Source: Actinopolymorpha alba DSM 45243
GTDB lineage: Bacteria > Actinomycetota > Actinomycetes > Propionibacteriales > Actinopolymorphaceae
NCBI RefSeq assembly: GCF_000373925.1
Contig: NZ_KB892778.1
Coordinates: 1-53,570, forward strand
Length of the DNA: 53,570 nt
Direction: 5' to 3'
Positions 23,346-27,015 of this stretch are shown one piece after another (the first letter of the stretch is position 1; each line of letters opens with the position of its first letter). Below the pieces are notes generated by a model that did not search any database, had not been told where the DNA came from, and was given only the letters and a program-made list of their open reading frames with translations. Both the position numbers and the translations under genes were made by a program.

Positions 23346-24133
23346 TCTTCCGCGCGAGTTTCGCCCGGCCCGGGCGGCGGGATCCCGCGGCGGGCCGCGA
23401 ACAGGACGGCGAAGCCGTCGAGTAGGCGATCCAGGCCGAAATCAAAGCTCTCGTCCCAGCTGGCGTCGTACGCCTCGGCGCTGAGCGCGGCCATCGCCGG
23501 GTAGTTGCCCGACTCCATGGCCCGCACCAGGACCGGGTGGTGCTGGCTCCAGAACTCCTCGTCGCTCACCCCGGTCTCCTCGGCCGCGGCGTCGTACAGG
23601 ATCCGCTGTCGTACGAAGCCGGTGACGAAGCCGTCGAGCGTGATCACGACTCCTATCTGCTCCTGGTCGGTCAGCCCGAGGCCGGCGAGGCCGGCGATGA
23701 CGATCTCGACCCCGGCGAGGCTGTTCGGACCCATCACCGGGCGGGTCCAGTTGACCCGCAAGAGCCAGGGATGCCGCAGGTAGAGCCGGTACGAGTCGCG
23801 GGCGACCGCTTCCAATAGCTCGCGCCAGCCCTTGTCCGCGGCCTGGGTCACGTCCTCGCCCGGCAGGATGAGCCGGTCCAGCATCAACGCGAGTAGCTCC
23901 GCCTTGCCGGGGACGTACCGGTACAGCGACATCGCGCCGACGCCCAGCTCGCCGGCGACCCGCCGCATGGAGAGAGCGCCGATCCCGTCCCGGTCGGCGG
24001 CCGCGATCGCCGCCTCGACGATCCTGTCCAGGGTCAAGCTCGGCTTGGGTCCGCGGGCGGGTCGCTCACTGGGGCCCCAGAGCAGGTCGATGCTGCGTCG
24101 CAACTGCTCCGCGGGGGTGGGGTCGGTCGTCAT
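23330..24133 (-). CDS. TetR family repressor of the adjacent exporter
   Basis: 267 aa. The HTH is LTLDRIVEAAIAAADRDG, LSMRRVAGELGVGAMSLY, RYVPGKAELLALMLDRL. The C-terminal ligand domain is of the larger TetR_C type (LRHPWLLRVNWTRPVMGP, GFVTGFVRQRILYD). It is divergent from the two-gene ABC exporter with a perfect 15-bp palindrome between the starts, which fits drug-responsive local repression. ATG 24133 preferred; ATG 24145 adds four residues. Confidence 0.87.
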   Translation of the reverse strand: MTTDPTPAEQLRRSIDLLWGPSERPARGPKPSLTLDRIVEAAIAAADRDGIGALSMRRVAGELGVGAMSLYRYVPGKAELLALMLDRLILPGEDVTQAADKGWRELLEAVARDSYRLYLRHPWLLRVNWTRPVMGPNSLAGVEIVIAGLAGLGLTDQEQIGVVITLDGFVTGFVRQRILYDAAAEETGVSDEEFWSQHHPVLVRAMESGNYPAMAALSAEAYDASWDESFDFGLDRLLDGFAVLFAARRGIPPPGPGETRAEDQGGA

Positions 24134-24222: not shown

Positions 24223-25200
24223 TTGTCCACGTCCGACTACGTGGTCCTCACCGAGGGCCTACAGAAGCGATATCGCGAAACTCAGGCGCTCGACGGCCTG
24301 GATCTGGCCGTACCGCGCGGCCTGGTCTTTGGCCTCCTGGGCCCCAACGGCGCCGGTAAGACCACCGCCGTCCGCATCCTGTCCACGCTGGTCCGGCCCG
24401 ACGGCGGCCGGGCCGAGGTGGCCGGCCACGACGTACGGACCCAACCGCGCCTGGTGCGCCGCCGGATCGGCCTGACCGGACAGAACACCGCGGTCGACGA
24501 CAACATCAGCGCCCGGCAGAACCTGGTGATGTTCGGCCGCTTGTTCCACATCGGCAAGGCGGCCGCCCGGCAACGGGCCGACGAACTCCTGGCGCAGTTC
24601 GGCCTGGCCGACGCGGCCGAGAAGACGCCGAAGAAGTTCTCCGGTGGGATGCGCCGCCGACTCGATCTCGCCTCCAGCATGATCCTCGCGCCGGAGGTGC
24701 TGTTCCTGGACGAACCCACCACCGGCCTGGATCCGGCCGGGCGGCGGGAGGTGTGGCAGGCGGTCGGGGAACTTGCTGCCCACGGCACCACGGTGGTGCT
24801 CACCACCCACTACCTGGATGAGGCGGACAAGCTCTGCGACCGCATCGGGGTCATCGACCGCGGCCGGAACGTCGTCGAGGACACTCCGAGCGGGCTGAAG
24901 CGGCGGATCGGCAACGAGCGGCTGGAGATCGTCGCGGCCGACCCGGGCGACCTGCCCGCGATCGAGATGCTGCTCGGCAAGGTGGCCGCCGACGGGCGTA
25001 CGCCAACGCTTGATGAGACCACCCTCGCCGCGAGCGTGGCGGTGTCCAACGGCGTCACCGCGCTGACCGAAGTCGCGGCCGAACTACGCCACCGGGACCT
25101 CACCGTGGCCGACCTGGGGCTGCGGCGGCCCACCCTGGACGAGGCCTTCCTACACCTCACCGGAGAACGCCCGACCGACGATCTGGAGGTGAGCAAGTGA
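24223..25200 (+). CDS. Drug-export ABC ATPase, DrrA type
   Basis: 325 aa. Walker [10 protein letters not shown] (residues 40-48), Q-loop region [13 protein letters not shown], signature [15 protein letters not shown], Walker [16 protein letters not shown], switch histidine [14 protein letters not shown]. The C-terminal ~90-residue tail with [15 protein letters not shown] is typical of DrrA-like exporters. TTG 24223 is the start, with GGAGGG six bases upstream; the open frame reaching 24136 would run through the operator. Coupled to the permease by a 4-bp GTGA overlap. Confidence 0.92.
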
Positions 25201-26039
25201 GCATGCTCCGTCTCGCACCCGACACCAGTGACACTCTCGGCAGTCGGGTCAGATGGGCGGTGGCCGACTGCTGGACGATCCTGATCCAGGAGTTGACGCA
25301 CCTCGTCCGTCAACCCTCCACCTTCGCCTGGCAGCTCGGGTTCCCGATCGTCATGGTGCTCATGTTCGTGTACGTCTTCGGCAGCGCCATGGACGTCTCC
25401 GGGCAGGGCGCCGGAGAGGGCTACCTGGAGTTCGCCATGCCCGGGCTCTTCGCCATGACCATGGCGTTCGGCTTCATGAACACCGCCTTCGCAGTGGCCA
25501 TGATCAAGGAGAAGGGATTCATCGACCGCTTCCGGTCCATGCCGATGGCCTCCTCAGCGGTGGTCACCGGGCGGGGCCTGTCCGACGTCATCCACGCCAC
25601 AGTGGACCTGGCGATCCTGGTCGCGATCGCCCTGGTCCTCGGCTGGCGCCCCGGCGGGGGTATCGCCGCGACGCTGAGCGCGTTCGCGCTGCTGCTCTGG
25701 CTACGGCTGGCCCTCATCTTCGTCGGCATTCAGCTGGGGCTGATGGTGAAGAACACCGAGGCGGCAGGAAACCTGTTCGCGGTGGCCTTCCCCTTCGGGA
25801 TGGTCTCCTCGGTCTTCGCGCCACCGGACCTGATGCCCGGCTGGCTGGGCGCGGTCGCCGCGTGGAACCCGGTCTCCTCCACCGCCGGGGCGATCCGGGA
25901 GTTGTTCGTGTCCCCGGCCGTCTCCAGCGGATACTGGATCGAGCAGCACGCGGTCGCGGCCGCAGTCATCTGGCCGGCGGTCATCACCGCGATCTTCCTG
26001 CCCCTGGCGGTACGCCAGTTCCAGCGCCTCGGCCGCTGA
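25197..26039 (+). CDS. ABC-2 type permease, DrrB type
   Basis: 280 aa with six membrane segments: [105 protein letters not shown]. The segment [19 protein letters not shown] is the ABC-2 coupling region. GTG 25197 overlaps the ATPase stop, so they form one export unit for a lipophilic compound such as an antibiotic. The stop is followed by a gene-free stretch of hairpins. Confidence 0.92.
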
Positions 26040-26053
26040 CCTAGAGCGCAAGC

Positions 26054-26107
26054 TGACGTGGCGGAGGCGCCTCGGGCTCTTTGGGCCAAAACTCCTCCGC
26101 CACGTCA
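26054..26107 (+). repeat. Hairpin H1 of intergenic array
   Basis: tgacgtggcggagg (26054-26067) pairs perfectly with cctccgccacgtca (26094-26107); 26-nt loop. It starts 14 bp after the permease stop, so it may act as a terminator, though no T-run follows. Confidence 0.8.
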
Positions 26108-26143
26108 CCGCAACCTCGCGAGCAACTCTCGAACCCGACCAAG

Positions 26144-26190
26144 GATCGTGAAGGATTCTGGTCAGATATCGACGAAAATCCTTCACGATC
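26144..26190 (+). repeat. Hairpin H2 of intergenic array
   Basis: gatcgtgaaggatt (26144-26157) pairs perfectly with aatccttcacgatc (26177-26190); 19-nt loop. Unrelated in sequence to H1. Confidence 0.85.
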
Positions 26191-26206
26191 ACGGCAGTCA
26201 CCTCGG

Positions 26207-26282
26207 CGAAGTTGATCAACGGTCCGCAAATCGGGCACTCTTCGCTGTGGGTGCCCAAATTCGGGACCGTTGATCAACTTCG
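26207..26282 (+). repeat. Hairpin H3 of intergenic array
   Basis: A 19-bp perfect stem: 26207-26225 against 26264-26282, core gttgatcaac. The 38-nt loop holds a nested stem gggcac/gtgccc (26233-26238, 26251-26256), making a two-storey structure. Confidence 0.87.
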
Positions 26283-26319
26283 ATGGCGCGGCGGTTTTGA
26301 ATAAGCTTCATGGTGTACA

Positions 26320-26349
26320 CCTGATTGTTTCGAATGCCGAAAAATCAGG
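26320..26349 (+). repeat. Hairpin H4 of intergenic array
   Basis: cctgattgtttcg (26320-26332) pairs with cgaaaaatcagg (26338-26349) with one bulged g; five-base loop aatgc. Confidence 0.75.
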
Positions 26350-26388
26350 CGCAGCTCTCGCGATATGAGACAAGCCCTTTGGTCTGCT

Positions 26389-26440
26389 CGAGTTGTCATA
26401 GGTTTCTCGGTCTCTTAGCCGAGAAACCTATGACAGCTCG
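26389..26440 (+). repeat. Hairpin H5 of intergenic array
   Basis: A 22-bp stem with a single G-U type pair: 26389-26410 (core cataggtttctcgg) against 26419-26440; loop tctcttag. The longest stem of the array. Confidence 0.87.
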
Positions 26441-26483
26441 GGGTTGTTGGGATCCAGATTCTGGAGGCGGTCCTCGTCATGGA

Positions 26484-26501
26484 GGAGCTTTTAGTAGCTC
26501 C
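26484..26501 (+). repeat. Hairpin H6 of intergenic array
   Basis: ggagct, six-base loop tttagt, agctcc. Short and could be chance, but it continues the series about 60 bp before the HIT gene. Confidence 0.5.
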
Positions 26502-26565
26502 GACGATCGACGCCGCTAGCTCCGGTCAGGGGCCCTGGTCCAATGCGTTGGATAGGGTCTGAAGC

Positions 26566-27015
26566 ATGACGGTGACGGGCTGCCACAGCTGCGACCAAGA
26601 AGCCAACTTCGATGGGCTGCCACCCAGGGAGTTGATCGCCTCTGACGAGCACTGGCGTGTGGTGCACGCCTTCAACAGTGGACTGTTGGGGTGGCTCGTC
26701 CTGACGACCCGGCGGCACGTGATGGAGCTGGCCGAGTTGAACGACGCGGAAGTTGCGACGCTTGGTGCGTGGCAGGTGCGACTGGCGCGGGCGTTGGGGG
26801 AGGAGTTCGGGACTTCCAAGACGTACGTCGCGGAGTTCGGTGAGGTGTCTGGCTTTCATCTGCATTTTCATGTTGTTCCGCGGCTTGGCGACCTCGATGA
26901 CGCGATGCGTGGACCCGGCATTTTCAGTTTCCTGGGTGTGAGTGACGACGAGCAGGTCAGCGCGGAAGCCCGGGACGATCTCGCCAAGAGACTCGCCGCC
27001 CGGTTGACTGCCTAA
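26566..27015 (+). CDS. HIT-family nucleotide hydrolase
   Basis: 149 aa. The histidine triad is HLHFHVVPRLG, preceded by the HIT fold strands (HWRVVHAFNSGLLGWLVLTT, RRHVMELAELND). N-terminal CHSCD may bind zinc with the later residues. HIT enzymes hydrolyse or transfer nucleoside monophosphates (adenosine phosphoramidate, Ap4A-like substrates). ATG 26566 used. It lies between the hairpin array and the LacI regulator; no operon partner. Confidence 0.88.
   Translation: MTVTGCHSCDQEANFDGLPPRELIASDEHWRVVHAFNSGLLGWLVLTTRRHVMELAELNDAEVATLGAWQVRLARALGEEFGTSKTYVAEFGEVSGFHLHFHVVPRLGDLDDAMRGPGIFSFLGVSDDEQVSAEARDDLAKRLAARLTA

Follow-up and report, generated by a model that had tools for sequence, protein, structure and literature searches.

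The BIME/REP repeats are high-copy extragenic palindromes that form mosaic arrays, including arrays of hybrid families, keep their palindromy through complementary changes and have been suggested to act in transcription termination (PMC2817692). The RAYT transposases have been proposed as their agents, and mosaics of this kind have been attributed to them (PMC2817692). The REP units measure 20-40 bp, and CGTC-tagged REPs are palindromic repeats without a dedicated transposase, whose spread is left open (PMC3733652). Spread without a dedicated transposase is also left open for the repetitive hairpin elements of mitochondria (PMC2800124). Together with GC clusters, these are intergenic hairpins that proliferate, merge and shuffle by a mechanism described as unsettled, and target-site duplications are reported for GC clusters (PMC2800124, PMC4478555). 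In bacteria, MITEs such as NEMIS, RUP and ERIC are small, non-autonomous and mostly intergenic elements whose transcripts fold (PMC2229807). A survey of stem-loop repeats in 40 genomes defined 92 families, 41 of them intergenic, and the sections of that survey drawn on here make no mention of Actinopolymorpha (PMC2267715). Our literature search, with subscription papers and preprints outside its scope, turned up nothing published about repeats of this sort in Actinopolymorpha or its family.

The gap described here, from Actinopolymorpha alba DSM 45243, is a mosaic of short palindromic repeats lying behind genes, probably parasitic, non-autonomous mobile DNA of the BIME/REP kind. It shares with BIME/REP repeats the extragenic position, the many copies per genome and the mosaic arrays of palindromic units; it differs in the length of its units (45-74 bp in the annotated copies) and in the many unlike families that stand in one array. 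The mitochondrial elements and GC clusters belong to organelle genomes, and the likeness to them, as to the surveyed stem-loop families, is one of description.

Hairpins in the Gap Between a Permease Gene and a HIT Gene

The window is the whole stretch of 53,570 nucleotides that was analysed, on contig C72 of a draft genome (7.98 Mb, 127 contigs). The gap, at 26040-26565 (526 bp), separates a permease gene and a HIT gene on the + strand, and its limits in the original prediction, the permease stop at 26039 and the HIT gene at 26566, were borne out (Table 1). The first hairpin stands 14 bases from the permease stop. The repeat coverage of the array was taken from an all-against-all BLAST of the fetched own-genome stretches, and support is weaker in the part at 26312-26358.

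Table 1. Genes, repeat modules and hairpins in and around the gap (positions in the window).
Feature	Position	Strand	Details
Upstream gene, DrrB-type ABC-2 permease	25197..26039	+	Pfam PF01061
Mosaic array, repeated core of the gap	26045..26446	+	Repeat coverage 26045-26311 and 26359-26446
Hairpin H1	26054..26107	+	14 contiguous pairs, 26 bases between arms
Hairpin H2, family GATCGTGAAGGATT...AATCCTTCACGATC	26144..26190	+	14 contiguous pairs; 17 family hits in the fetched stretches
Hairpin H3, family AAGTTGATCAACGGTCC...GGACCGTTGATCAACTT	26207..26282	+	19 contiguous pairs plus inner pairs; 23 family hits
Module K, including weak hairpin H4 (arms 26320-26329, 26340-26349)	26305..26362	+	
H5 module, conserved lead-in plus hairpin	26361..26446	+	86-95 percent identity at several own-genome places
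Hairpin H5, CGAGTTGTCATAGGTTTCTCGG stem, TCTCTTA in the loop	26389..26440	+	17 contiguous pairs
H6, 6-bp stem	26484..26501	+	Indistinguishable from chance
Downstream gene, HIT-domain protein	26566..27015	+	Pfam PF01230

Six successive hairpins had been predicted. Four of them, H1, H2, H3 and H5, have at least 12 contiguous Watson-Crick pairs, against a shuffle mean of 0.003, and none of 300 dinucleotide shuffles reached four. When at least six contiguous pairs are asked for, the gap holds six hairpins against a shuffle mean of 3.4, a number reached in 25 of the 300 shuffles, and as hairpins H4 and H6 show no excess over chance. Module K is a weakly supported repeat with six other places at E < 0.01 (nhmmer, fetched stretches), and for the stretch around H6 (26443-26520) the same material yielded no significant relative. 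The predicted lack of T-runs was confirmed behind the four strong hairpins by a terminator search of 25950-26650, which returned a single weak terminator-like site at 26471-26486 where shuffles expect 0.6.

Dispersed Families in the Own Genome

By BLAST, the gap gave at least 96 matches in its own genome among the best 40 of 223 candidates, the palindromes matching on both strands. The material fetched comprised 39 own-genome places and 400 kb of contig C2. A strict H5 pattern occurs 36 times forward and 37 times in reverse in the genome, most copies being found on both strands because of the palindrome. Iterated searches of the fetched stretches gave 25 hits for H1, 39 for H5, 10 for F3, 11 for F4 and 12 for F5 (H2 and H3 in Table 1), counted before removal of overlaps, which arise between H1 and H5 hits from the kinship of these two families. 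The seven searched families recur in varied order and in both orientations, and the combinations seen include H1-H2-H3 runs, F3-H5 runs, H1-F4-H3, H1-H2-H5 and single units. It had been claimed that the arms differ completely from one hairpin to the next, which proved wrong for H1 and H5, alignable relatives with paired differences. The accompanying statement that the array is not a CRISPR stands: successive hairpins differ, and H1 and H5 are related, lie 280 bp apart and are not near-identical.

The 400 kb of C2 carry 29 hairpins that score at least 16, against none in one third-order Markov sequence of equal length; in congeners such hairpins number one in 200 kb of G002 and four in 200 kb of G004. 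Contig C2 was chosen for its many hits and carries 8 of the approximately 37 strict H5 copies on 5 percent of the genome, and its density is not to be extrapolated. Array stretches of more than 240 bp in common are 61-87 percent identical, and shorter module matches reach 97 percent. Given the identity of the long shared stretches, no recent insertion event was caught, which counts against mobility.

Placement of the Modules and Comparison With Congeners

The genes were called with a simple codon-usage caller made for the analysis. On C2, 23 of the 24 annotated modules are wholly intergenic, and the remaining one, the H5 copy at 24065, shares 13 bases with the end of a gene. The module-bearing gaps in all fetched own stretches number 52, of which 25 are convergent, 21 co-directional and 6 divergent. 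One further module, close to the end of a stretch, could not be assigned to a gap, and the 36 sites outside C2 were picked mostly by similarity to the window array. Convergent orientation is found in 8 of the 16 array gaps of C2 and in 20 of the 210 others (p = 0.00014). The deficit of divergent gaps is not significant, either on C2 (1 of 16 against 48 of 210) or outside it. In 18 of the 21 co-directional gaps the nearest module lies nearer to the upstream stop than to the next start (sign test p = 0.0007), the median distances being 44 bp and 217 bp.

When the gap was searched by BLAST in 56 other genomes, including five congeners, no match was obtained at E 0.001; up to 11 candidates were scored in each genome. 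For the window site, the closest permease of the congeners shares 41 percent identity and is located far away from the HIT relatives. The region of C2 with SdhB-like and MshC-like genes is syntenic with stretches of four congeners (G002-G005), and five of the 16 array gaps of C2 were comparable, both neighbours being matched in at least one congener. At C2:333171-333657 the own gap measures 487 bp, against 95, 97, 107 and 134 bp in four congeners; inspected by eye, each of these shorter gaps has a single hairpin, of different sequence. Site 221923 measures 279 bp against 64-169 bp, and site 265323 measures 399 bp against 209 bp in one congener. At site 274042 the own gap of 669 bp compares with 109 bp in G003 and about 1.4 kb in three others, and at site 305358 all four congeners are longer (1.1-2.6 kb). 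The array gap is thus longer than its counterparts at three of the five sites, whereas most or all relatives are longer at the other two; comparable gaps without modules (n = 64) have a median excess of -16.5 bp. The original prediction had taken a lack of stems at homologous loci as a sign against a special structure. Such a lack was found at one comparable site, where it indicates a change specific to the lineage rather than an artefact.

The position right behind stops and the enrichment in convergent gaps also speak for a different and rather unlikely reading, in which the hairpins are mainly selected terminators or stabilisers of 3' ends, resemble one another through recombination between terminators and form arrays as redundant bidirectional terminators. 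A broad survey reports an enrichment of inverted repeats directly after the stop codons of bacteria (PMC13155455), and the congeners' own hairpin at a comparable site, seen by eye, suits this reading as well. However, the strong hairpins lack T-runs, a single gap can hold as many as six annotated modules, array gaps are longer at three of the five comparable sites, and a dispersed family is present in another genus but was not found in five congeners.

The H1/H5 Family in a Second Genus

A covariance model, R1, was built from H1 and H5. The window's H1 aligns with this family, and the copy matched (G000:C72:26051-26111) is one of the model's own rows. At least 150 match rows were obtained in the own genome, many places counting on both strands, and 33 in G007, a complete one-contig genome of 8.5 Mb from another genus of the same family. 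None came from G006 or from any of the five congeners; 150 candidates were scored in each genome. Over 147 genomes of the order, the own one included (37 candidates scored each, stricter filters), R1 matched the own genome, G007 and, marginally, G099 at E 8.9e-4. The strict H3 pattern is absent from all 292 other genomes of the order, and a scan of genome contigs, from which the own genome and very near ones were possibly left out, found nothing for the strict H5 pattern.

In 400 kb of G007, R1 gave 11 rows at seven places. Most of these copies keep the apical CTCGG/CCGAG and have similar loop letters, and the middle of the stem differs, being mostly GTTGGACAGAT and matched on the opposite arm. 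These 400 kb, selected in part around R1 matches, hold 30 hairpins that score at least 16; those that score at least 15 lie in 24 gaps, of which 10 are convergent and five have two or more. On C2, four gaps have two or more such hairpins, against none in 800 kb of four congeners. At L237:3012-3819 of G007, five unlike hairpins stand in one convergent gap, a parallel to the window array, and by eye the unlike hairpins of the G007 arrays belong largely to other families.

In the H1/H5 alignment (22 stem pairs), 75 cells are changed on both sides, cells counting sequences and not events. Shuffles give 34 such cells, and sliding the partners gives no more than 29; 87 percent of cells pair, against 79 percent in shuffles. 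The number of pairs with both-sided change (8 against 7.5; 230 of 500 shuffles as high) and the number of pair types (20 against 18.8; 147 of 500) show no excess, and since these counts are not above shuffles a small number of events may have been passed on to many copies. With hand-picked G007 copies included, both genomes together give 69 such cells against 28 in shuffles and at most 12 with slid partners. Both-sided change is then found in 12 of the 22 pairs, against 9.8 (19 of 500 as high), a weak excess, and pair types are not above shuffles (455 of 500 as high). For F5, both-sided changes occur in 14 of 31 predicted pairs over nine copies, with a covariation term of -3.1, while in H3 (alignment A1, 22 of the 23 family hits) they occur in 7 of 21 pairs without covariation gain (+0.08). 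One F5 copy (C2:319703) is by eye an apparent chimera of two F5 subtypes.

The departures from pairing were counted as G-T and A-C. They number 5 and 9 in H1, 22 and 0 in H5 (a single fixed column accounts for 21 of these), 2 and 7 in H2, 13 and 12 in H3, 23 and 8 in F3, 14 and 3 in F4, and 16 and 14 in F5, so that F3 and F4 lean to G-T. The four window families pooled give 42 G-T and 28 A-C, or 21 and 28 without one fixed T-G column, and neither strand is clearly favoured.

These counts also agree with an improbable reading in which template switching during replication corrects imperfect palindromes, the paired changes arise without selection on a folded molecule, and the repeats spread by ordinary recombination. 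The near-perfect stems, the lack of a clear strand preference and the H1/H5 pair and pair-type measures at shuffle level all fit such correction. On the other hand, the apical CTCGG/CCGAG is the same in both genera in most copies while the middle of the stem differs, and correction alone accounts for neither the copy number nor the preference for certain sites.

That the gap encodes a long, structured non-coding RNA, one of the options originally offered, is very improbable. Folding of the gap, proposed with it as a check, did place its RNA far below 100 shuffles (z = -10.7), and the H1/H5 units show paired stem differences. Nevertheless, the order and orientation of the modules vary among sites, which leaves a single long RNA unsupported, and the window families have no clear asymmetry between G-T and A-C. 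In addition, Rfam returned nothing at gathering score in 25800-26800; its six sub-threshold matches (up to E 1) are mostly to microRNA families, as would be expected of a long near-perfect hairpin. Folded recombination sites of the integron attC type, or a cruciform bound by a nucleoid protein, would suit palindromic, dispersed and intergenic modules but are the least probable of the readings, as the modules of one gap have no predicted genes between them (own gene caller).

Tests of the Spreading Route

The GTAG tag was found at the hairpin foot in 2 of 109 copies, compared with 3.6 percent of random positions, and the repeats differ in this from REPs. The foot tag of the CGTC-tagged REPs is present in 9 of 109 copies, below the 16.8 percent of random positions, with F3 alone at 5 of 10. 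No match to a Y1 (RAYT-type) transposase was obtained in G007 at E 0.001, and G003 has seven Y1 matches and no H1/H5 match; a Y1/RAYT enzyme as the agent of spread is weakened by both results. A RAYT may once have been present in G007 and since been lost. The own genome has eight Y1 loci, one with an H2 hairpin about 1.4 kb off and another with a short match, at about 1 kb, to other repeats of the arrays, and within the loci examined none of the eight has modules on both sides, a further difference from BIME/REP repeats. By behaviour the array is BIME-like, but by the tag and RAYT criteria it is not a REP or BIME.

The mean of the flanking direct repeats is not above that of shuffled partners at 5 percent in any of the seven families and is borderline for H1 and H5 (12 and 13 of 200 shuffles as high); a clear target-site duplication was not seen, in contrast to GC clusters and bacterial MITEs. 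As for an insertion-sequence parent, none of 104 genes is flanked on both sides by one family. The lack of a clear duplication, of a flanked gene and the lack of an enzyme among these searches count against the mobile reading.

Among the options originally listed, palindromic mobile elements landing in a tolerated site fit best, in agreement with the changing combinations, the intergenic position and the shorter gaps of some congeners; the mobility itself we infer. In the mosaic reading, hairpin units of about 45-76 bp, some of them carrying a short lead-in that is conserved, would have multiplied around the genome and settled beside or inside earlier ones in the tolerated space behind stop codons, chiefly in convergent gaps, and arrays of unlike hairpins would build up in this way. 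The spreading machinery may recognise the hairpin in its folded state, whether in single-stranded or extruded DNA or in an RNA intermediate, and stem letters would then tend to change in pairs. A resident RAYT is probably not the machinery at work. The hairpins probably also have a side effect on the upstream gene, whose transcripts they would end or protect.

A wider proposal, which we put forward tentatively, is a RAYT-free hairpin system in the family of Actinopolymorpha, where unlike classes might use one route that reads shape and apex, not stem letters, and where each lineage might rewrite the stems in pairs and build its own mosaic arrays behind genes. The array otherwise belongs to a known kind of bacterial repeat, and what sets it apart is the paired stem changes across genera, one of them without a Y1 match. 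The own genome and G007, which share a hairpin family with paired stem differences while five congeners gave no match, provide a natural comparison in which to look for the agent that spreads palindromes when there is no dedicated transposase.

Other Repeats Observed

Seven strict H5 copies of the approximately 37 genome-wide lie within about 111 kb at G000:C2:221985-333258. In A. rutila, a single hairpin with CATAGCACCC near its top (G004:C1:2122227-2122280) resembles F4 by eye. A hairpin class with the stem TGGGTCGGGGGCACCC occurs at G000:C2:383118-383690 and G000:C2:1-506 beside fragments of a repeated gene, including a protein fragment at C2:383118-383546, which we take to be of the DUF222/HNH (13E12) type; a 15-base word of this stem is present in G007 stretches too. 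Outside the seven hairpin families, a repeat type GCATGAGCGAGCGCAGCGAGCGAATCATTCA... forms direct tandem units by eye at G000:C2:340145-340402 and L028:2700-2910. Palindromes of the AATGATCACGTATACGTGATCATT type are paired around an inner stretch at G000:C2:34731, 207909, 282219 and 312189, and G007 has AAATGATCATGTTTACATGATCATTT, their apparent counterpart with an altered core.
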